The notes under the pieces were generated by a model. The model was not told where the DNA came from and did not search any database. It saw only the letters and a program-made list of their open reading frames with translations. Source: Hypomyces perniciosus (taxonomy: Eukaryota > Ascomycota > Sordariomycetes > Hypocreales > Hypocreaceae). From it: a stretch of DNA of 64,000 nucleotides. Within the stretch, counting starts at the first letter, position 1. Each line of letters opens with the position of its first letter. Below are positions 18,690 to 44,673 of the stretch, piece by piece. Position numbers and translations under genes: made by a program. The stretch lies in contig SPDT01000004.1 of assembly GCA_008477525.1 (NCBI GenBank), positions 868,001-932,000 on the forward strand, in the 5' to 3' direction.

Positions 18690-21600
18690 GCAGAAGAAGC
18701 GTAAAAAAGGGAGCACCCGCCCACCGTCCCGCTCCCCTTTCCCAGCTACAAATCGTGTCAGCACGAGGAATAACAGTAAGAATTGGGTGTTTCAGGAGGG
18801 GGGCCCGCCCACCCTCTCCCCCTCCTGCCTACCTTGTCCCCGAGATGCGTTTACTTCTGGTTTCCTATTGTGTTAGCTTGAAATCGTGACATCAACGTTG
18901 CTGAGAGAGGTTTAGGTGTGTCTATCCTGATCGGGCATCTCCGTTGCTCGTTTCGATGAATTGATTCAGGTTGCTTGATTTTTTCCGAACGCCTGAAAGC
19001 CTGGATTATTCATGCTGATTAAAAAGGTCAGAATAGGAGGGAATCGACGAACCAGATATATTGGCGAGTTAGAAAGAAATGGAAAAAGGGGGGCACCCGC
19101 CCACCATCCCGCTCCCCTTCTCCCAAAACCTGTAAACTTGTTAGCCATGTGTATTCGTTCTATAAGGGGAAAGAGTTCTGAGAAGAGGGCGCCCGCCCAC
19201 CCGCCCCCTCCTCTCCTTACCGTCGCCCACTATTACCGAACCTATATAAACGTTAGTAAATTATATGAAATGAGGGATTAGGGATTGAGAAGAGGGCACC
19301 CTCCCACCCACGCCCTCTTCTCCTTACCGTAGTTCCTGTGACTGGGGACCTATCCACATGTTAGTAAACCACAACAAAGAAGGGATTGGAGATTGAGAAA
19401 AGGCACCCACCCGCCCGTTGCCTCTTCTCCCTACCTTTCCCACAAGCTGTCGCTCTCACGTAAGTCGATCCGAGTTGCCTAGTTGTCAAACTAATATCAC
19501 AATTGTTGCCAGCAATCAAAGATAGAGAGTAACTCACAGTTATGGTTGTCGGCCGCAGAAAGATGACGGATAAAGGGGGCACCCACCCACCATCCCGCTC
19601 CCCTTCTCCCAAAACCTATAGATTATCAGTAGGCTATATCAGCAATATTTAGAGGAGGAATTTGAGAAGAGGCGCCCGCCCGCCCACTGCCTCTTCTCCT
19701 TACCTTTTCCCGAAACGTTGCCTGTTTCGCGTGAGTCGATCCGAGTTGCCTAGTGTGTCAAGCTAATCTCACAGTTGTATTCCGCATCAACAATCAGAAA
19801 TAAGAGTGACTTACAGTTATGAAGTTGTTGGTTGCAAATAAGAATAGATGAAGGGGGGCACCCACCCACCGTCCCGCTCCCCTTCTCCCGGAATCTATAA
19901 ATCATTAGCAAGCTATATCAGCTGTATTTGTATGTAGGGATTTGAGAAGAGGCGCCCGCCCGCCCATTGCCCCTTCTCCCTACCTTTCCCTATCAGTCTT
20001 CCGGTTCGTGTAAGTCGTCGATCCGAGTTGCCTGGTTTTGTCAAGCCACTCGCAGAATTGTACCCCCTTATTAGGAATGAGAGATAAGGTAGACAGTGTG
20101 ACTTACAGTTATGAAGTTGTTAGCTGCAAAAAGAGCATGGATAAAGGGGGCACCCACCCACCGTCCCGCTCCCCTTCTCCAGAAACCTATTCTAGCTGTT
20201 AGTAAACCGCAACAATGAGAGGAAGGGAAATTTGAGAAGAGCTGCCCGCCCACCCGCTGCCGCTTCTCCCTACCTTTCCCCGTAAGTTGGTTGTCCGTTT
20301 CGCGTAAGTCGATCCGAGGTACCTAGTTTTGTCAAGCTGCTCACACAGTTGTGTTCTAACGTTAGTATTAATAATAGAGAGGAACTCACAGGTAGTTTCG
20401 AAAAAGAACATGGGTAAAGGGGGCACCCGCCCACCATCCCGCTCCCCTTCTCCCGGACCTGTACATTATTAGCAAGCTATGTCGGCTATATTTGGGTATG
20501 GGAATTTGAGAAGAGGTGCCCGCCCGCCCACTACCTCTTCTCCCTACCTTGGCCTTTTCCCCTGAGGGAACCTACACGACTGTTAGCAAACCACATTAAA
20601 TGGGGGATTAGGAATTTGAGAAAAGAGTGCCCACCCACCCACTCCTTTCTCCCCCTACCTTTCCCCATGAGATGCTAGTCGGAAATGAAGTTAACAAGTT
20701 GTCTGGTTAGTTGAAACGCTCGCAGGATTAGACTTGAGAATGCACAGACACTTACCAAATCAAGATATTTTGAAGTTTTCGGTTGGAAAAAAAGATAAGG
20801 ATAAAGGGGGCACCCGCCCGCCATCCCGCACCCCTTCTCCCGAATACCTACATACTGTCAGTGAGGGTTCCCACCCGCCCCTACCCTCTTCTCCCTACCG
20901 TCATGCCATTCTTTCCGAACCTGTACACGATGTTAGCTAACTCTAGTCAGCGATGCTAGGAATTTGGGAAGTTGAGAAGAAGGTGCCCGCCCGCCCTCAC
21001 CTCTTCTCCCTACCTTATCCCCAGTCTTTCCGAACCTACACACATATTAGTATACAATATTAAATAAGGGATTTGGGATTGAGAAGAGGGCTCCCACCCA
21101 CCCACTCCCTCTTCTCCTTACCTTGGCCTTGTTTGCCGGAAGAAAACTATATAACTGTTAGCAAGCAGCATGGACGGTGTGAAAGGTTGAGAATTTGAGA
21201 AGAGAGTGCCCACCCGCCCACTGCCTCTTCTCCCTACCTTGACCCTTTTCTCCTAGGAGGTCTCGACTCAAATGAGTCAAGATCAGTTCTCTGGCCTGCT
21301 GAAACGATTATACTATTGAACTCCTATTTCAGCAATTGGGAGAGAAACTCACCGAACCAGACATGTTGTGAAGATGTCAATTGCCGAAAAGAAAAATAAA
21401 TGAAGGGGGGCACCCACCCACCGTCCCGCTCCCCTTCACCTGGAACCTATGTATCTGGTCAGTAACCTGTCGCAAAAATTGGAATTTGGTATTTGAGAAG
21501 AGGGTGCCCGCCCACCCATTCCCTCTTCTCCCTACCTTTTCCCAAAACGAATCCGTTGATCTGTGTTGCAGTTCGGTAAGCCTTATGTCAATGATCGAAA

Positions 21601-22830
21601 ATGGAAAGGGTCTTACCGCATAAGTCTTCAGTTGCAAAAAGATATGGAAAAGGGGGCACCCACCCACCGTCCCGCTCCCCTTCTCCAGAAACCTGTTCTA
21701 GCTGTTAGTAGACTGCAACAATGAGAGGATGGGAATTCGAGAAGAGGTCGCCCGCCCACCCGCTCCCTCTTCTTCTCCTTACCGTAGCCCACTATTACCG
21801 AACCTACACACACGTTAGTAAACCACATAAGACAAGGGAATAGGGAGTTGAAAAGAGGTCGCCCGCCCACCCGCTTCCTCTTCTTCTCCTTACCGTGGCC
21901 CACTATTACCGAACCTATCTATACGTTAGTAAATTATATGAAATGAGGGATTAGGGATTGAGAAGAGGGCACCCTCCCACCCACGCCCTCTTCTCCCTAC
22001 CGTAGTACCATTTATACCGGACCTACACACATATTAGTAAACGACAATAAATGAGGGAATGGGGATTGAGAAGAGGGTACCCTCCCGCCCACGCCCTCTT
22101 CTCCTTACCGTTGTGCCACGCTTACCGAACCTACACACACGTTAGTAAACCACACGCAATGGGATTGGGGATGTGAGAAGAGGGTACCCGCCCGCCCCAG
22201 CCCCGTTCTCCTTACCGTGCCGCCACTCTTGCGAACCTGTACATGATGTTAGTAAACTATCACAATACTAAGGAATAGGAAGCTGAGAAGAGGTCGCCCG
22301 CCCACCCAATCTTCTTCTCCCTACCTTGTTCCCAGTCTTCCGGATCCTAAAGACACGTTAGTATATCACATTAAATAGGGAATAAGAAGATGAGAAGAGA
22401 GTGCCCGCCCACCCACTGCCTCTTCTCCCCTACCTTCCCCCTTTGCTTCCGGAACCTACAGATACGTTAGTATATCATATTCAATGGGGGAATAAGAATT
22501 TGAGAAGAGGGTGCCCACCCGCCCCAACCCTCTTCTCCTTACCGTAGTACCTGTTCTGCCGGAACCTGGAAACAGCGTTAGTAAACGTTTGCAATTGGAG
22601 GAACTCGGGAAGTTGAGAAGAGGGTACCCGCCCACCCGTTCCCCCTTCCCCCTACCTTTGCCCCATGAGTTGGTTGGTTCAAGTCGGTCCGAGTACCTAG
22701 CATGTCAAGTCATTCATCGGCATATCAAAAGAGTCAGAATGAGAAGGGGGATCACCAAAGATATTGTGGAGTTGCAAAGAGATGGACGAAGGGGGCACCC
22801 GCCCACCATCCCGCACCCCTTCTCCCAGAC
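18690..22830 (-). repeat. array of introner-like hairpin introns and GC-rich cassettes
   Basis: About 34 GC-rich hairpin modules occur in 4.9 kb, counting the outlier near 23,562. Twenty-three are of the intron type: on the minus strand a donor GTAAGG or GTAGGG is followed at once by AGAAGAGG, a loop of G-triplets (GGGYGGGYGGG) and the complementary CCTCTTCT, then 40 AT-rich bases, TACTAAC and TAG. Eleven are of the cassette type, with GAGAAGGGG...CCCCCTT around a similar G-rich loop. Copies are near-identical but not exact, and they are spaced about 107 bp apart where consecutive. The two ends of each module are inverted repeats, so the transcript would fold. Confidence 0.85.
21783..22565 (-). 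other. eight consecutive microexons separated by 85-90 nt introns
   Basis: Minus-strand microexons, in transcript order: 22565-22543, 22455-22434, 22346-22325, 22236-22216, 22130-22109, 22022-22001, 21914-21894 and 21803-21783, with lengths 23, 22, 22, 21, 22, 22, 21 and 21 nt. Introns between them are 87, 87, 88, 85, 86, 86 and 90 nt. Nearly every microexon begins GTTC or GTCC directly after the acceptor AG and ends ACG or AAG before GTAAGG/GTAGGG. One of the three frames stays open across all eight and into the next cassette. Confidence 0.7.
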
Positions 22831-24640
22831 GATGGATCAATGGCTTGGCCAATCGCTCTGTAGGCTTGAATCAGCATGGTAAGCATGGAGGAGTGCGTTA
22901 TGGATTGGGAGCATGAAGATGGGGTGACTTCCTTCTGGATGGGCTGGCTTGGTGTTCTTCAGCCTTTTGTATGAATGGGCTGCAAAAGTTAGCAAGAGTG
23001 AGAGAGAGGTAGAGAATGTTCATTACTTGTGACTTCCGGAGTCTGTGGGATGTGATCTTCTTGGATGAGTCGATCGAGATGACTTGCTTGTTTTTAGCTG
23101 GATCACAGTATGGTGTGGTGAGAAAGGGGGGATAGAGTGGACTTCCCAATAGGTATTCTTCATGACAAGATGATAAAGAGGCGAGGTGGAACTGTTTTGT
23201 ATCACCGCTGCTGCGCATGTCAGTCAGTAAAATTTCATTCAGGAGACGGGAGCAATGGGAGTCTGTCTTATTGATCGTTGTATTTCTAGCAATGCTAGTG
23301 TGTAGTAGTGTCTTGTTGTTGTCGTTGATGTGCCGGCGGCTTGGACCTCTTGATACGACTTGTTAGCTGAGATCAGGCTACGAAGATAGGAACATCCTTA
23401 CTCGAGCTCATGATGAAAGGCAATGGCTTCAGCTATTGCTCAGACGAGATTGTCACTGTTCCAGGAATGAAGACATGTTAGCTTTTTTCTACATTGAATT
23501 TGGAGTCAAAGCAATGTGGAACTTACAGACGATTCTGAGTCGAACTCAGAAAAGACTGCAGAAGGGGGCACCCGCCCGCCATCCCGCACCCCTCCGCCAT
23601 TGTCGATGGTTGCCAAGTAGATGATAGTCGAATTGACTAGTTGGATAAAATCTTGGATTGAAGGTGATTTTCTGCAGTAGTGAACAGGACAGCAGGCGAT
23701 GGGGTTCTGACTTACCACTACCTGAACCTGCTCAGGAAGAATGGGTCTTGGGATGAAGGAGATGTTGATGGCATCGAGTGGTGTTCCGATGGGGAATTGA
23801 TGATGGTTTTCTGTAGTCAATAGGATCCGAGATGGGATGATTGTTACTCACTGCCATTGAAGGATGATGGAGTGTCTTTGCCGATGGGTGTTGGGGTGAG
23901 AAGACGAAGGCACAATGTTTTCAAGGTTGGAAGGATGGATGCCTGTGACTATGATTTCTCGCAGTAGCCAGGATTTCTGATGGAATGAGGATGACTTGCC
24001 TGAGAATTCCCAAAGTGGGATGAATCTTTGTCGGTCGAGGTGGATAGGGTCAAGGTTGAAATTCTTTCTTCTCGGGGAGAGAGACGTGTTTGGCTTGGGA
24101 ATTTCCTGCACAAATCAATGAAGAGGATGAAGGGATGACGACTTACCGATGATGATGCTGATGCTGCAGTGGTGACGGGTGCTTGGTTGATGGGGGTAGA
24201 TGGTGGAGGTTGGAAGTTGGAATTTCCAAGTTGCATGTGGGGTGGAAGTTGGAGGAAGGGGTTTTTTCTTTTTGGTCAGAAGAATGTGAGGGGGGGTTGA
24301 TGACTCACTTCGAGGTCCAAGTGATCAAGTGACCAATGTTTTGTCGAATGTTTATTGCAATTCGGAATCGAAGGAATCTCGGGTCGAGGGGAAGACGAAG
24401 ATTGATTTTCTGCTGCAGTCAAGTTGATCTTGGATGAGGAGGATCAGGAGGTTGCAACTTACTAGATCCTTGATGTTGATGCTTCGTAGTCGTGGGTTGG
24501 TAATGAAGTGGTTGAAGTTGGGTAGTTTTGTGTTTGGTCAAAAATTCCGACTGGCCTTAGCATATCAGGGGAAATCGGTTATAGTGCGAGTGTCAGGGGG
24601 AGGGTTCCCCACCCATCAACTTGCTTTCAGGGACCAATGA

Positions 24641-36058: not shown

Positions 36059-38398
36059 CTAGAGAGGGATAGTACATACAATTCGCCCACCTGTTACTTC
36101 ACGAGCTTCTATAAAGCTCAGTTCGGCAAGCGGATCGGTATCCGATAACTCAACCTCTTCAAGAAGCTTCTCCACACTTCGAATATATCCCCCACGAAGC
36201 CACGATCTCACCGTCTGCGTCATTCCAATTGTACTAGCATCCAGATTTGCCCGGTCATCTCGAACCATTCTGCCGGCCGTAGAGAAAAGTCTCTCAACGT
36301 CAGCAGACATTGGAAGAGTAGAAAGAACATCAAGGGCCATCCGTGATAGGCGAGGATATTCCTCCCGTCTGTCGCACCAATAGCTGATGGGATCCAGGAT
36401 CCTCTGATCCGATTTATGTACGTCTCGAAACCAATCGTTATATTCATCTCCCACAGCTGACGAAGCAGGAGTGAATGGCGACTGTAATAATGCCGGCGCC
36501 TGACGAGACTCCTCGCAGTACTCGTTGAAGGGATTTCGATAAGTTCGCTGCTTCTTCATAACCGGTTCTCGGTCTCGAGAAACGACCTGCGGATCGTATT
36601 GAGACCTATACAGCCCCTCCACAAGGGACTTTGCAGTCTGGATCCATTCTGGGCGATCTGCCCATATGTCCTCAAAGTATCCCCAACGATATGCTGGATG
36701 AAGCGCGACAGCTGCATAATAGACCGGTGTCTCATCAAGCCGCGAGTAGTACTCATCAAGTTTCTTCCAGCAGAGATTAATATTGACCTTGAAGTGCTCA
36801 GGGTCGGGATATCGATGAGCAGCGGCCTTATATACCTCCATTTTATTAAGCAGGTACTCGTAGCCAAACATAAGATCCCAAGAGCATCCATATGCTTTAG
36901 TATAGCCATACTTTCGCATCCGCTGTCGACCGTCACCTTCAAGGGTAATTAAAACATGCTCAAAATGTTGGAGGACCTCGTTAAAAAGAGCGATAATATT
37001 CCAATCCTTCTCATCGAGTTTGTTGTCATCCCTGAGACAAAGTGGCATTTCACTCCTCGACTTCTTTCCCCTTAAAATTGACCCTTCCCACTCGTTTTTC
37101 TGCCTATACCAGAGTTCTTCAAGGAAGTCCTTCAGGAGAAGAGCGCGTCGGATCATGTAAAGAGTAGAAAGCCAACGAGTTACCACATCAGTAATGACAT
37201 CTAGAGGCTTTTTTGCTTGTATTGTCGGATCCTCAGACTTCTCGAACGCGACCAACTGAAGAGACCGAAGGAGATTAGTTAGTAAGTCTGAACGATGAAT
37301 CCAAACGACAAGGTTATGGAGTTTCCCAATAGGGCCTTTCCGTCTCCACATCTCATGGGCCTTCGCATTAAGCGCCTCATTTCCAAGGATATCATCCTCA
37401 AATGCCTCAGAGTCATGGCCAAAAAGCAGCGCTTTAACAGCAAGATTAAGGATATGGCCAAAGCAGCGTAATCGCCGGGTTTCTCCCTTAAAGCCCAGCG
37501 CTTTTCCGATTTCCTTCATCGCTGTATCGTTGTTGCTGGCGTTATCAAGTGTAAAGTATCCGACCTTCTGGGTTATATCATAGCTCCGAAGGATATCGAC
37601 AACATGAGCAGCAATATTCTCCCCAGAATGACGATCGACAAGCTCTGGAAGTCCAAGGACAAGTTTTTGTGGCTGGCCAACGGTATCAAGAAAATAGCAA
37701 ACGATTCCATATAGAGCATGGCGATTATTCGACCTCCAGCCATCGAACGCTATGTGAATCAGCCCTGGGGCTGCCGCCAACACTCGCTTTATTTCCTCTA
37801 TGTTTTCTTCGTACACCTTAAGGATGCGTCTGCGAACGGTATCGTGGGTGATATGTGCCTCGGTCGTCTTCACGAGGGGATTGAGGTACTCGAAAACTGC
37901 GCGGAGGTACGGATCTTCGCTTTGTCGGAAGGAGGAATTACTGTTGATGATCCAACAGACTACCAAGCGCTGGAAGGCTAATCGATCAAAACGGCCGATG
38001 ATCTGGTTGGCAATCTGCTGTTCTCGCGAGTTATATGTGTTCAGCTTCATCATCTCGGCGATATTCCTTGATGACGTATTCTCTTTTGCTTTACTTGGCG
38101 GCTTCCGCCTGCCTGAAGGATCCCAGATACTGTGGTCGGTCCAGAGGTGGATCTCTGCGTTCTGTGTGCCATTCGAGGCAGTCGAGTGAGGTTTTTGCTT
38201 ACTACTCTTTACGCAGACCTTGCAAACCCATCGCCGCTTTGTATCATCGTCGCTCTTCTCGATATCGTAACCGAATTGCCATATCCATGACGATATGGAT
38301 GCGCAACGCTGGGATTGAGTATACCCAGGGAAGTATTTCCAAGGGAAAAGGTCCCACAGGTTCTCCTGGTCCTCCTGGGCCTGTATCTGAGGATGCAT
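36059..38398 (-). CDS. hAT family transposase
   Basis: Single open frame of 779 residues. The N-terminal part has a BED-like zinc finger (CKVC near residue 62, then spaced His residues). The RNase H-like catalytic core is recognisable from FDGW near residue 215 and from FTLDNASNND near 280. The C-terminal hAT dimerisation region contains the family signature LSTLPMSADVERLFSTAGRM. The enzyme cuts and pastes DNA ends in the nucleus, generating 8-bp duplications, which agrees with the flanks. No stop or frameshift is present, unlike most fungal transposons that have passed through repeat-induced mutation. Flanking AT-rich segments inside the element have no other gene. Confidence 0.93.
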   Translation of the reverse strand: MHPQIQAQEDQENLWDLFPWKYFPGYTQSQRCASISSWIWQFGYDIEKSDDDTKRRWVCKVCVKSSKQKPHSTASNGTQNAEIHLWTDHSIWDPSGRRKPPSKAKENTSSRNIAEMMKLNTYNSREQQIANQIIGRFDRLAFQRLVVCWIINSNSSFRQSEDPYLRAVFEYLNPLVKTTEAHITHDTVRRRILKVYEENIEEIKRVLAAAPGLIHIAFDGWRSNNRHALYGIVCYFLDTVGQPQKLVLGLPELVDRHSGENIAAHVVDILRSYDITQKVGYFTLDNASNNDTAMKEIGKALGFKGETRRLRCFGHILNLAVKALLFGHDSEAFEDDILGNEALNAKAHEMWRRKGPIGKLHNLVVWIHRSDLLTNLLRSLQLVAFEKSEDPTIQAKKPLDVITDVVTRWLSTLYMIRRALLLKDFLEELWYRQKNEWEGSILRGKKSRSEMPLCLRDDNKLDEKDWNIIALFNEVLQHFEHVLITLEGDGRQRMRKYGYTKAYGCSWDLMFGYEYLLNKMEVYKAAAHRYPDPEHFKVNINLCWKKLDEYYSRLDETPVYYAAVALHPAYRWGYFEDIWADRPEWIQTAKSLVEGLYRSQYDPQVVSRDREPVMKKQRTYRNPFNEYCEESRQAPALLQSPFTPASSAVGDEYNDWFRDVHKSDQRILDPISYWCDRREEYPRLSRMALDVLSTLPMSADVERLFSTAGRMVRDDRANLDASTIGMTQTVRSWLRGGYIRSVEKLLEEVELSDTDPLAELSFIEAREVTGGRIVCTIPL

Positions 38399-39114
38399 AG
38401 GGTTAATAAATTATGCTTATGGCGATTCCATTAATAAAAAATTCATATACGAAGTACATAAAACCCTTTCTCCTAATAGAAGTTCAACGCGCCTGAACGC
38501 GGTAACTAAGAACGCGAAATCTCCACGCTCCTGGCTACCAAAAAAAAAAAATCTTCCATAATCACTACTAACATATGTAAGAGCAAAATGTATAGTGATT
38601 TGTTAGTGGTGACTTAAGTTTAGCGTCCCTCTAGTTTTATACTAGGCTAAGTGATGCAGGTATTTTTATAGCTTAACTTGATGCGAAAACCTGACAGTTA
38701 TTACGGAGTACATAAATACAGTTTTTAAAAAAGATATTTATTATAATTGGAATAGAGTTGGCCTTTCTAGCAATATACTAAAATATATATAATAAGATTC
38801 ATTTCTCTCTATATAGCTATATATTAAATGCATATAGATTTAGTTTCGTTTACCTACTCTTCCAATGATATATAGGGTATGTTGGCGGAGGGTCAGGTAG
38901 AACAAGCACGGAGTCTCTGGTAATGATGTCACTGACTTGGGCAATGGTAAGTATACTATTTTAGGGTGATGATTAAGCGCCCCCCTGCTTCCATTTCCAT
39001 CCACGGGACCCTTCCGTGGATGGATGGATTATGTAATGGCAGGCGCGATGGAATGGATGGAAATGGATGCACGGGCCATTCATTTCCATAAATGGACGCC
39101 CGTGGAAATGGACG

Positions 39115-41041: not shown

Positions 41042-43564
41042 TTAGTCCAGAACCTTGAGCATATTGTACGCCTTGTGACCAATCACCCTTTTCACCACCG
41101 CCAACGGATCCTTCTTCTTAGGCTCGGGGGTCGACTCTGCAGTCTTTCCCTTTCTTTCACCCTCATCGTCGTCCTCGCCCCCATCTTCTTTCAGCTCCTT
41201 AAAGGACCCATTGTCCATAAAGGACTTCAACATGCCATGTGAGTATCCGGCTACCATAACTGTACCTACTTCAGTCGTGGTAACCTGCTTCGGGGGAATC
41301 GGACATCCAGACCCTGTCGTCGCGTCCTCATAGCCCGCCTTGCCACCGGCCAGGTTCCAAAAGACAAGTTCCGGCATTTCATACCCGGCATCAGCAAATA
41401 ATTTCTTAATCCGCTCATACGAATAGTTCCACTGAGGTGCAAGGATGGACTGGGCTTTGTTAAAATGCACATCGCTGAACACAAACACTCGCTTGACCAT
41501 GTCTTCCTGCTTCAGTTTGTTCTGAATGGCCATCGGTAGAATGAGGTCCTCAAACACGGAGACTATGTTGACAGTGGTATCCCATCTCGATTTCTTTATC
41601 TCTTGTATCTTCTCTGCGAGCGGCTTAGAGAGGTCAAGCTTCACCAGCTCTGGCTTGGAGTGAAAGTTCACAAACGCACCCCCGAAGGGGGGCTTTGTGA
41701 CCTCGGCGATCAAAAGGGAGAGACTAATCGCGGTATCCATGGGACAAGTCAAATCCTTGAATGCCAGGGAATACATGCTTCCCGAAACATCGCAGACGGC
41801 AAGGCATGACGAGAGAGTCCCGGAATCTTTGATTCGCTGTACAAGACTATTCCACTGACTGTCGACTACCTTGTAGTTAACCGTCAAGGCTTTACATAGT
41901 ACAACAGCCTCCGGAGGGATGTTTTGCATATCCTCATTGTCCAAGTCAGGCTTGAGACCATCGACAGAGTGGACGAGGGTTGAAGGATACAGTGGTGCGC
42001 CTGAAAATTTTCCGATTTTCCCTTCTGCCAAGAGATCGATGTATGTCTCGAAGCGAGCAGTGTCCTTGATGATGAATAACTGGTGATAACGATGCAGTGC
42101 AATGGAGGACACGCGGTCGTACTGGATGTTCCAAAAGGTATTGGCCGTAAGGTCCCGCTCCACAACCTCCAGGTGCTTGCGGAGTGCAGAGATATCCTTA
42201 CGGTACTCCTCACGGGCATAGCGGATGTACGTCTCAGAGTCATCGGTTGGAGAGAGAACGCTGTCGAACAATTCGCGTGGGTACATAATTTCCGCAATGG
42301 TGCTGATGACAAAAGTGTGTCTATCGTGAAAATGATCGTGGGAGGGAGCCCACTTTGCGCAGAGTGAGATGCTCTTTTTGGCATTGGAGTCTGAGCCACG
42401 AAGTACCGCTATATCAGCCTGGAGCTGTTCAGCAAAGAGCCGAGCGACGGTGAGATGCAAGGCGCGATAGACGGGGTTTAGGTGAAAAGCCTCGATGGCA
42501 GCTTTACGTCGACTGATGCGGACCCCTAACCTAGCTGCCTTGGAGGTCCCAAGACGAGCAGTTTTCTCCTTCCGAACAGGTACTGTTCCAACAGTAGCAG
42601 TCTGGCTGCCATTTTTGCGTGCGTTGGCATTGATGGCACTCTGCCTCTTCGCGTACATGGCACGCTTAAATGCAGTGCTCGGGTTATTCACTCTTTTGAT
42701 TTGAGCCCTGGTCTTGATTACTACATCTTCAACGTTGAAGAGATCTCGAGGGTTCGCAAGCACATGGAGTTTGTCGTTGACAGCCAAGGCCAATATGTTA
42801 AGAAGATCCTTCCAGTAACCATGAGCGACGCCGTGTCTGGCATCAAACCGATTGGGATCATCGCCATCTGGTTTAGTCTCCGTAATGACAAAATCATCTT
42901 CGCCTGCCTTCTTGACCTTTTGTTCAATTACCGGGCGGCTCAACCATCGTAGATTGGCGACTAGGGTGAGAGGATGGTTCTGGGCCAGCCATCCAGCAGC
43001 GCGGTAGAATGTGGTTTTGGAGCGCCTACCCAAATGGACGGAGCGGGCGTTGAAGATTACCTTGAGAGTGGAGAGAGGATCGTCAGCCCAAGCTGCCTCA
43101 AGGATCTCTTGCAGACGAGGACCTGTTACAACGTCCTCCAGCTCGAAGAAGAGGTCGACGAGAGCGTTTCTGGTAGGCCGATATGCAACATTGGCATTCT
43201 TGGCCAACATCTTACCCAACGTATTGACCGGAGCCTTTCTCCTCTTGCCATGATTCAACAGAGTCTTCCTGGAGCGACTAGAGCTTGCAGGGTTCTCTCT
43301 ATGTGTCTTGGTGCCTGTGTCTACAGGGTTGAGATCCATAGCAGCGAGTTTGTGCTTGATCCCCGCAGTGGCTGTACTGGCAAGGGTATAGTTCTCCGAG
43401 CCAGTGGTCCGCCGGCGACGAAGTTCGTCCGCAATGAATCTGTCGAATTCGGCACGAGACTTTCTCAAGGCCTTGTGTGAAGGGAACAGCACAGGGTACG
43501 TGATTCTCAGAAACCATGGCTGGTCCCCCTGCTGCTGCTCATTCTGGCCCTCAACTGCAGCCAT
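41042..43564 (-). CDS. DUF2828 protein with von Willebrand A-like domain
   Basis: Single exon of 840 residues. The N-terminal half resembles the helical-repeat part of DUF2828 proteins (ELEDVVTGPRLQEILEAAW, then FYRAAGWLAQNHPLTLVANL). The C-terminal half is von Willebrand A-like, with a complete metal-binding motif DVSGSMYS near residue 590, a Thr in RWDTTVN and an Asp in VFSDVHF. The overall order (helical repeat ring plus VWA with MIDAS) recalls the Ro60/TROVE RNA-binding proteins, so RNA binding is a reasonable guess but not shown here. A basic segment lies between residues 310 and 370. A Glu/Lys-rich insertion sits near the C-terminus. Complete and intact. Confidence 0.85.
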   Translation of the reverse strand: MAAVEGQNEQQQGDQPWFLRITYPVLFPSHKALRKSRAEFDRFIADELRRRRTTGSENYTLASTATAGIKHKLAAMDLNPVDTGTKTHRENPASSSRSRKTLLNHGKRRKAPVNTLGKMLAKNANVAYRPTRNALVDLFFELEDVVTGPRLQEILEAAWADDPLSTLKVIFNARSVHLGRRSKTTFYRAAGWLAQNHPLTLVANLRWLSRPVIEQKVKKAGEDDFVITETKPDGDDPNRFDARHGVAHGYWKDLLNILALAVNDKLHVLANPRDLFNVEDVVIKTRAQIKRVNNPSTAFKRAMYAKRQSAINANARKNGSQTATVGTVPVRKEKTARLGTSKAARLGVRISRRKAAIEAFHLNPVYRALHLTVARLFAEQLQADIAVLRGSDSNAKKSISLCAKWAPSHDHFHDRHTFVISTIAEIMYPRELFDSVLSPTDDSETYIRYAREEYRKDISALRKHLEVVERDLTANTFWNIQYDRVSSIALHRYHQLFIIKDTARFETYIDLLAEGKIGKFSGAPLYPSTLVHSVDGLKPDLDNEDMQNIPPEAVVLCKALTVNYKVVDSQWNSLVQRIKDSGTLSSCLAVCDVSGSMYSLAFKDLTCPMDTAISLSLLIAEVTKPPFGGAFVNFHSKPELVKLDLSKPLAEKIQEIKKSRWDTTVNIVSVFEDLILPMAIQNKLKQEDMVKRVFVFSDVHFNKAQSILAPQWNYSYERIKKLFADAGYEMPELVFWNLAGGKAGYEDATTGSGCPIPPKQVTTTEVGTVMVAGYSHGMLKSFMDNGSFKELKEDGGEDDDEGERKGKTAESTPEPKKKDPLAVVKRVIGHKAYNMLKVLD

Positions 43565-44673
43565 GATGATCTATTCCCGAGGGAGGAGTTGGAGGGAAAG
43601 GATCTGAGATTGAACAAGACGTACAGAGTCTAATTCGAGATCGATATTGAAAATGGGGAGGTGATATCTTCCTTTTTGTATTGTATTCTTGTAAATGACA
43701 AGACCAAGAAGCCTGTTATTCGCCGGAATAGAAGGTTCTGCGTGGACCGCGTTGGCCAGAGCGACTCGGTTCGGAGTGGGACGAAACGAAACCTTTGACA
43801 TACATCGATCAGCGCCATTGGCAGAAAACGTTGATTCTTTCTTTTATCGATCAATCACTTACAAACTGCCCCTTGCGCCGGCAACACCACACCAGATCGT
43901 CTTCCTAGAGAGACTAGAGAGACTAGAGAGACTAGAGGGACTAGAAAGACTAGTCGAAAGCGCGAAGCCTCTTGGGGGATTGGTGTAGAGAAGTCGAGCG
44001 GGGGTTTGGAGTTGTGAGGAGTAATATGAGGCGGGGTCTGACCGAATGTGGCGGAGTGCATATTATTATGCATGCATGTCTGTTATGGGACGAAGGACGA
44101 AGTTCAGTTCTCCGTAAGGTACCTATAAATAGTAGAATAGAGACGGAGCTGTGGATTAGATAATGGATAGAAAGAAGTGGGATGGAGGTGGGAGAATGAA
44201 TAGAACCAAGCCTTATACACGGGCAAACCAGGAGATCAAGATGGTCAGTACGGAGTATATGTGGCCGCCTTGGAAACAAATCGATTCTATGCATCTATAC
44301 CGTAGCTAAGCAGAAAACGCATCAAATGTCCCGAATTGATCCAACACCACACATCTGGCATCTTTGTCTGATGTCTCTGCTAGCAGCATGAGTCGAAGAT
44401 GTCGAACAAAAGATTCATGCACATTTCCCATCTCTTCATGAGTCGTGAGGTGAAATGAACCAACTGCGTGTCGGTTTTGCCTCGAAAAAGTATTCGCCAG
44501 ACATCCTGCCCAGAGGCCTGACTTACGAGGCAGGCAGCGAGAAAAAAAAATGAAAAAAGAAAGACCAAAAACTGGTCTGATACATGCATATTCTCCGGAC
44601 CGAAATAACAGACTACCAATGTCGTGGTTTCTTGCCGTTGACTTGCGAGTTAAATAGACCAAAATCACCTCCT
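43565..44673. other. intergenic region with a short tandem repeat
   Basis: Promoter side of the DUF2828 gene and 3' side of the HPP gene. It contains an AGAGACTAG tandem repeat at about 43,908-43,952 (four to five units, some degenerate) and a TACGGAGTA motif at 44,249. No gene was recognised. Confidence 0.5.

Follow-up and report, generated by a model that had tools for sequence, protein, structure and literature searches.

What kind of gene would consist of more than 20 short introns, each bearing a hairpin and many separated by exons barely longer than 20 nucleotides? The question is posed by a locus of the ascomycete Hypomyces perniciosus, situated in a 64,000-nucleotide stretch of contig SPDT01000004.1 (assembly GCA_008477525.1, positions 868,001 to 932,000), here called the window. 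The window is G000:C16:868001-932000 in the genome that we searched, which comprises 44.0 Mb in 23 contigs. Intron parsing and pattern matching place the array on the minus strand at window positions 18746-22655, where it contains 23 predicted type-1 hairpin introns (i1), microexons, and units of 279 bp. As judged from its sequence, the locus is real and unusual, and no description of a comparable array turned up among the papers listed by our literature searches. We propose, tentatively and with chances that we put just short of even, that it is a spliced, structured, and probably non-coding RNA gene whose introns fold into hairpins, whose exons would present a row of G-rich loops, and whose body expanded by duplication of exons together with introns.

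Each i1 carries its own splice signals in a common layout. A GTA[AG]G donor is followed about 5 bases later by the hairpin, then by a CTRAY (TACTAAC-like) branch site, and finally by an acceptor, at 14-16 nt counted from the first base of the CTRAY motif. When donor, hairpin, branch, and acceptor are parsed from position 22655 to position 18746, all 23 introns show the GT, CTRAY, and AG signals of ascomycete U2-type spliceosomal introns in the usual order and at the usual distances. Across the whole window, a composite pattern of these four elements has 22 minus-strand matches, each of them within the locus; it has none on the plus strand and none in 200 dinucleotide shuffles of the 4.8 kb. 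An initial annotation, made from the letters alone, had reported these signals recurring in order some 23 times on this strand, and the parse together with the empty shuffles bears it out. The two junctions that it named fit the parse: 22543/22455 corresponds to intron 22542-22456, and 22434/22346 to intron 22433-22347.

From the upstream end, the i1 introns lie at 22566-22655 (90 nt), 22456-22542 (87 nt), 22347-22433 (87 nt), 22237-22324 (88 nt), 22131-22215 (85 nt), 22023-22108 (86 nt), 21915-22000 (86 nt), 21804-21893 (90 nt), 21693-21782 (90 nt), 21447-21535 (89 nt), 21147-21237 (91 nt), 21036-21121 (86 nt), 20921-21013 (93 nt), 20848-20898 (51 nt), 20572-20658 (87 nt), 20459-20547 (89 nt), 20187-20273 (87 nt), 19895-19983 (89 nt), 19616-19703 (88 nt), 19350-19434 (85 nt), 19242-19327 (86 nt), 19130-19220 (91 nt), and 18746-18832 (87 nt), all on the minus strand. 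For the donors at 22000, 21782, and 20273, the acceptor was set by comparison with other copies and is not the earliest AG. Thus, the single 51-nt version noted initially is present, whereas the size range of 85-90 nt given for those measured must be widened to 85-93 nt for the remaining 22. The copies are also not "near-identical," as had been stated, because pairwise identity among the 22 full-length copies averages 63% and ranges from 49% to 97%. Successive i1 introns are separated by 22 gaps, which fall into two groups, 14 of 21-25 nt, as expected from the earlier description of exons mostly in this range, and eight of 157-297 nt. Overall, the predicted anatomy of short hairpin-bearing spliceosomal introns in tandem with microexons, with signals in register, withstands this closer parse.

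Two types of unit recur in the array. One, of ~108 bp, consists of i1 and a microexon; the other, of ~279 bp, has the order exon A, i1, exon B, and a second intron type (i2). The initial annotation mentioned neither i2 nor the sister hairpin (B) that the long gaps between i1 introns house. This hairpin resides in predicted exons and has 11 copies at this locus, so that hairpins of both kinds number 34 in the window. By inspection, B lies directly 3' of an i1 acceptor in 13 of the 15 copies in the genome. Its 25-nt core, GGGGWGCGGGAYGGYGGGYGGGTGC, has 21 columns that are invariant across those copies. A genome search with this core, permitting up to three mismatches, returned all 15 known copies, each with zero mismatches (11 at this locus and four in a second array described below), and no match elsewhere in the 44 Mb. 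The pattern is likewise absent from viral and prokaryotic collections, which by their description contain no fungal genomes and therefore add little weight. The first B core is upstream of the array at 23568-23592, and the others are at 22795-22819, 21656-21680, 21410-21434, 20810-20834, 20423-20447, 20150-20174, 19858-19882, 19579-19603, 19093-19117, and 18713-18737, again on the minus strand.

The i2 introns, which are located after the B hairpin, are predicted less securely than i1. A splice-signal scan of the minus strand gives candidates at 22697-22755 (59 nt, with a weak GTGATC donor), 20323-20389 (67 nt), 20032-20106 (75 nt), 19750-19814 (65 nt), and 19479-19537 (59 nt). Additional matches of the scan include one that overlaps an i1 donor and one that would be a 37-nt intron, and a looser scan adds candidates for two units.

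A covariance model trained on 26 full-length copies of i1 (22 from this locus and four from the second array) recovers these input copies by construction. Its further hits up to E = 5 comprise all 15 B hairpins (E from 0.0048 to 4.7), a fragment of the 51-nt intron, and five others, two of which fall outside both arrays. Because a model of i1 picks up every B hairpin, the i1 and B hairpins appear to be paralogous.

The second array consists of four long units at L047:7367-8403 (G000:C16:845.4-846.4 kb), on the same strand, ~40 kb away and outside the window. It contains the long unit and no microexons, and its four i1 introns raise the total to 27. Three of these four have ordered splice signals when parsed in alignment with the other copies. 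In the remaining one, at L047:8146 on the minus strand, the branch A is replaced by G in the aligned parse, and an upstream CTAAT provides an alternative parse of 80 nt. Every listed copy of either hairpin, in both arrays, is on the minus strand. The extent first assigned to the feature, 18690-22830, does contain the array of the window; it omits this second array and the upstream exonic hairpin at 23592-23568.

Matches from genome searches for relatives of i1 came almost entirely from this neighbourhood. A DNA query of 301 bases found 11 places, all inside the two C16 arrays. Patterns for the i1 hairpin matched the two arrays and, with one mismatch, two sites on C3 that are G-homopolymer runs; the reversed-pattern control gave three matches. 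Single copies in other genes, which the initial annotation had suggested seeking genome-wide, were not found by these DNA and pattern searches; the i1 patterns recover nine and five of the 27 known copies, so that close copies are excluded and very diverged ones are not. The genome search, in turn, scores its best candidates only and skips common words, and diverged single introns elsewhere could escape it.

The arms of the i1 hairpins are matched to one another. When 3' arms were swapped among 26 copies, the native combinations had a mean energy of -17.70 kcal/mol, compared with -16.45 kcal/mol (SD 0.34) for permuted ones (permutation P = 0.00016), and the inclusion of the 51-nt copy as a 27th gave P = 0.002; these P values assume independent copies and are optimistic for copies that are related. 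Both the alignment and the swap with 26 copies exclude the 51-nt intron. In the alignment, three donors are misaligned and the row for L047:7890 has one extra base, with the stem columns unaffected. The stems are ~10-12 bp long, 95.6% of their 248 pair cells are standard pairs, and four of 10 pairs show a double change. Among 500 shuffles, none matches either the share of standard pairs or the number of double changes, and one matches the number of further pair types. Controls in which the register is slid have 58-68% paired cells and covariation of 0.069-0.128, compared with 0.149 in the real register. Two copies depart from the common stem: that at 20572-20658 has a shifted register with a 12-bp run and changed pairs, and that at 18746-18832 carries three double, compensatory changes.

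The G-tracts of both hairpins are nearly invariant. The loop G-tracts of i1 are kept in 233 of 234 cells (26 copies) while the linkers vary among C, T, and A, and the G columns of the B core are kept in 255 of 255 cells (15 copies) while its linkers vary between C and T. In a comparison of 11 units (seven here and four in the second array, with unit 20898 left out), the B core is 92-96% identical both within and between arrays. The flanks are less well kept: the exon B tail is 43-62% identical, i2 is 44-50% identical, and the B tail, i2, and exon A end together span 33-62%. In these units, the best-kept segment is the i1 3' arm (97-100%), and the i1 5' arm and loop range from 73% to 97%. With the quadruplex option of ViennaRNA, whose energies are rough, all 15 B hairpins are predicted to have their stem topped by a two-tetrad quadruplex, and a quadruplex is predicted in 13 of 27 i1 introns, with none in the other 14. 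Most two-tetrad RNA motifs reportedly need dimerisation (PMC11602125).

The array appears to have grown by copying of DNA. Its longest repeat blocks, one of 261 bp with 86% identity (22109-21849 and 19435-19179) and one of 144 bp with 91% identity (21773-21633 and 20267-20125), span exon-intron boundaries. Because these blocks cross splice sites, exon and intron were duplicated together, by DNA duplication and not by spread of introners. Moreover, the identity of i1 copies is no lower at greater distance along the array, a pattern suggestive of copied segments or of gene conversion. One i1 pair on the minus strand, 22000-21915 and 19327-19242, is 97% identical across 2.7 kb, against the mean of 63%, pointing to a recent event of either kind. 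By inspection, the sequence of the microexons is similar to that of exon B's start fused to exon A's end. An internal deletion in the 279-bp unit may thus have produced the 108-bp unit, or the derivation may have run in the opposite direction.

If the minus strand carries a gene here, presumably an RNA polymerase II transcription unit, that was enlarged through duplicated segments containing exon and intron together, then its intronic stems have a plausible role. In i1 a stem lies between donor and branch site. The linear distance between these two sites is 75 nt (73-80 nt), and it falls to ~40 nt (37-45 nt) when the hairpin is looped out (26 copies), which should aid i1 splicing. Yeast introns of the RPS17B type are similar in that a stem after the donor reduces its distance from the branch site; such distance-shortening stems promote splicing, and the structural branchpoint distance is tied to efficiency (PMC2536676). 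Those introns, however, belong to coding genes, whereas here more than 20 paralogous introns share a G-rich loop that a distance role does not require. Distance shortening thus explains the stem and not the G-rich loop. For the loop we suggest a further, conjectural step, in which splicing would line up the B hairpins in series (11 at this locus and four in its paralogue) so that near-invariant G-rich loops form a repeated binding platform for a putative partner or a site of G-quadruplex association.

Several observations weigh against this explanation. The P values of the arm swap are flattered by the relatedness of the copies, and for the B stem the corresponding swap is weak (P = 0.03, 15 copies). 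Slid registers contain 1-5 double-changed pairs, compared with four in the real one, so the argument for the stem cannot rest on double changes alone; the copy at 18832 accounts for three of those four. The 51-nt intron (20848-20898) retains the 5' arm and the G-rich loop and has lost the spacer and the outer half of the 3' arm. Its linear donor-branch distance is 40 nt, but a 6-bp stem is still predicted, making this copy suggestive rather than clean support for the distance idea. The i2 introns are weak, with a donor in 14 of 15 B units and a plausible acceptor in only seven. In a consensus scan, six of 11 chosen introns have their donor inside the B core; B may therefore be partly intronic, and its exonic status is a prediction. 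Finally, the best open reading frame (ORF) of the i1-spliced transcript scores 720 nt, above all of 40 shuffles (mean 392, maximum 717), and formally this keeps a coding reading in consideration.

Could the array instead be a minisatellite, G-rich and prone to quadruplexes, whose expansion within a spliced transcript was neutral? Every unit would then have brought its intron with it, the splice signals would persist only because their loss does harm, and the RNA would be without function. G-rich minisatellites are tandem G-rich repeats with segmental duplication, and G-tracts make other minisatellites prone to instability. The tandem units of ~108 and 279 bp, their G-tracts, and the segmental blocks all fit this description. 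However, the array has, in register, both a full set of splice signals and stem arms that match. Neutral expansion also accords poorly with a B core that is 92-96% identical beside a B tail and i2 at 43-62%, a difference that persists between arrays. We consider this alternative rather unlikely.

The well-kept 3' arm of i1 raises another candidate, namely that the excised hairpins are themselves the product, liberated from introns as structured RNAs or small RNAs in the manner of snoRNA or microRNA host genes. The hairpin occupies the intron's 5' end. Arrays of non-coding exons that host intronic RNA genes are known: in SNORD116/IPW-A, repeated non-coding exons alternate with introns bearing a structured RNA element (PMC4742849). 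The fungal array differs in its smaller units of ~0.1-0.28 kb, in the sister element within predicted exons, and in lacking an Rfam match at cut-off; no family reaches its gathering score in the window, and one hit, with E = 0.5, scores 17.3 bits where 50 would be needed. Also weighing against this reading is the strong conservation of the sister hairpin in predicted exons. In addition, a stem of ~10-12 bp is short for Dicer. Intron-derived products are accordingly improbable, and only slightly less so than a third proposal, in which the selected unit is DNA, as a repeated G-tract binding site or a quadruplex acting in replication, recombination, or chromatin. Nearly invariant G-tracts and the shared strand of all listed hairpins would suit such a site, but the hairpins have fixed positions relative to predicted splice sites, and their arms match; a duplex site needs neither.

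A gene for a repetitive protein with microexons is very improbable, despite the ORF score that exceeds 40 of 40 shuffles. We attribute this score to stop-poor repeats, whose structure shuffling destroys. The coding interpretation was rejected on frame and not on score: microexons of 21 and 22 nt coexist and so permit no common reading frame, and the 720-nt ORF passes through the same exon hairpin in two frames. An ORF search without the i1 constraint gives 1119 nt at the locus, compared with 384-2778 nt in 18 window segments of 6.7 kb on both strands (some of which overlap the locus), and the 1119-nt ORF cuts many i1 introns at other donors. The ORF pieces have no protein homologue at E values up to 10, and inspection shows that the variable positions of the B core are not all synonymous in any frame. 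As in a tandem host gene, repeated exon-intron units thus occur without a conserved frame, with the caveat of the one ORF that scores above shuffles.

Least probable of all is a local wave of insertions by introner-like elements into a single gene, because exons were duplicated along with introns, a sister hairpin resides in predicted exons, and no copy was found in other genes by searches of limited sensitivity to diverged ones. Introner-like multiplication had been the parallel drawn in the initial annotation, and the resemblance is genuine: fungal introner-like elements and the sister stwintrons of Hypoxylaceae are numerous similar spliceosomal introns with predicted stable hairpins (PMC8469720). 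However, they integrate seamlessly into exonic sequence at many places, whereas here there are two neighbouring tandem arrays with co-duplicated exons. In sister stwintrons, moreover, the terminal inverted repeats measure 45-55 nt, in contrast to the ~10-12-bp stems near the donor of i1. With genome matches confined to the two C16 arrays and two C3 homopolymer runs, in searches that could miss diverged copies, introner spread was rejected, and by the tests run the locus is not composed of introner-like elements.

If the structured RNA gene that we favour exists, it presumably extends upstream of the array. Its 5' part is tentatively placed at 22656-24600 on the minus strand. It includes three intron candidates (23526-23456, 23401-23349, and 23106-22980), and no protein relatives were found for its longest open frame. 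Between 23000 and 24600, the minus strand contains canonical donor/acceptor pairs and the one lone B hairpin at 23592-23568. According to a review of fungal long non-coding RNAs (lncRNAs) (PMC12566771), intergenic lncRNAs of Neurospora are typically intronless, and in another set introns are scarcer than in coding genes. An intron-dense lncRNA would thus be unusual among fungi.

The consequences would reach beyond this fungus. If spliced as predicted, ~4 kb would accommodate 23 hairpin introns, several more introns, and 14 exons of 21-25 nt, and would put intron definition in fungi to a stringent natural test. The array would also exemplify introns multiplied by simple duplication of DNA while selection maintains the hairpin, a mode unlike the spread of introners. 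We can go further and imagine an undescribed class of fungal RNA that uses one G-loop hairpin in two ways: at the donor of dozens of tiny introns it would drive their excision, and in exons it would yield, after splicing, a row of near-identical G-loops that bind one protein or associate through quadruplexes, such that splicing assembles a multivalent RNA. This broader idea is doubtful at present. The B hairpins offer a conserved and defined bait for a partner protein or for multivalent G-quadruplex association.

The window also contains other open reading frames. On the minus strand, a 783-amino-acid ORF (stop to stop, 36062-38410) has a hAT-family dimerisation domain and is probably derived from a transposase, and an 842-amino-acid ORF (stop to stop, 41045-43570) contains DUF2828 and DUF7788 domains. 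The window also encodes a ThrE-family protein whose best match is from Trichoderma (75% identity over 86% of its length), with a Cladobotryum protein at 73%.

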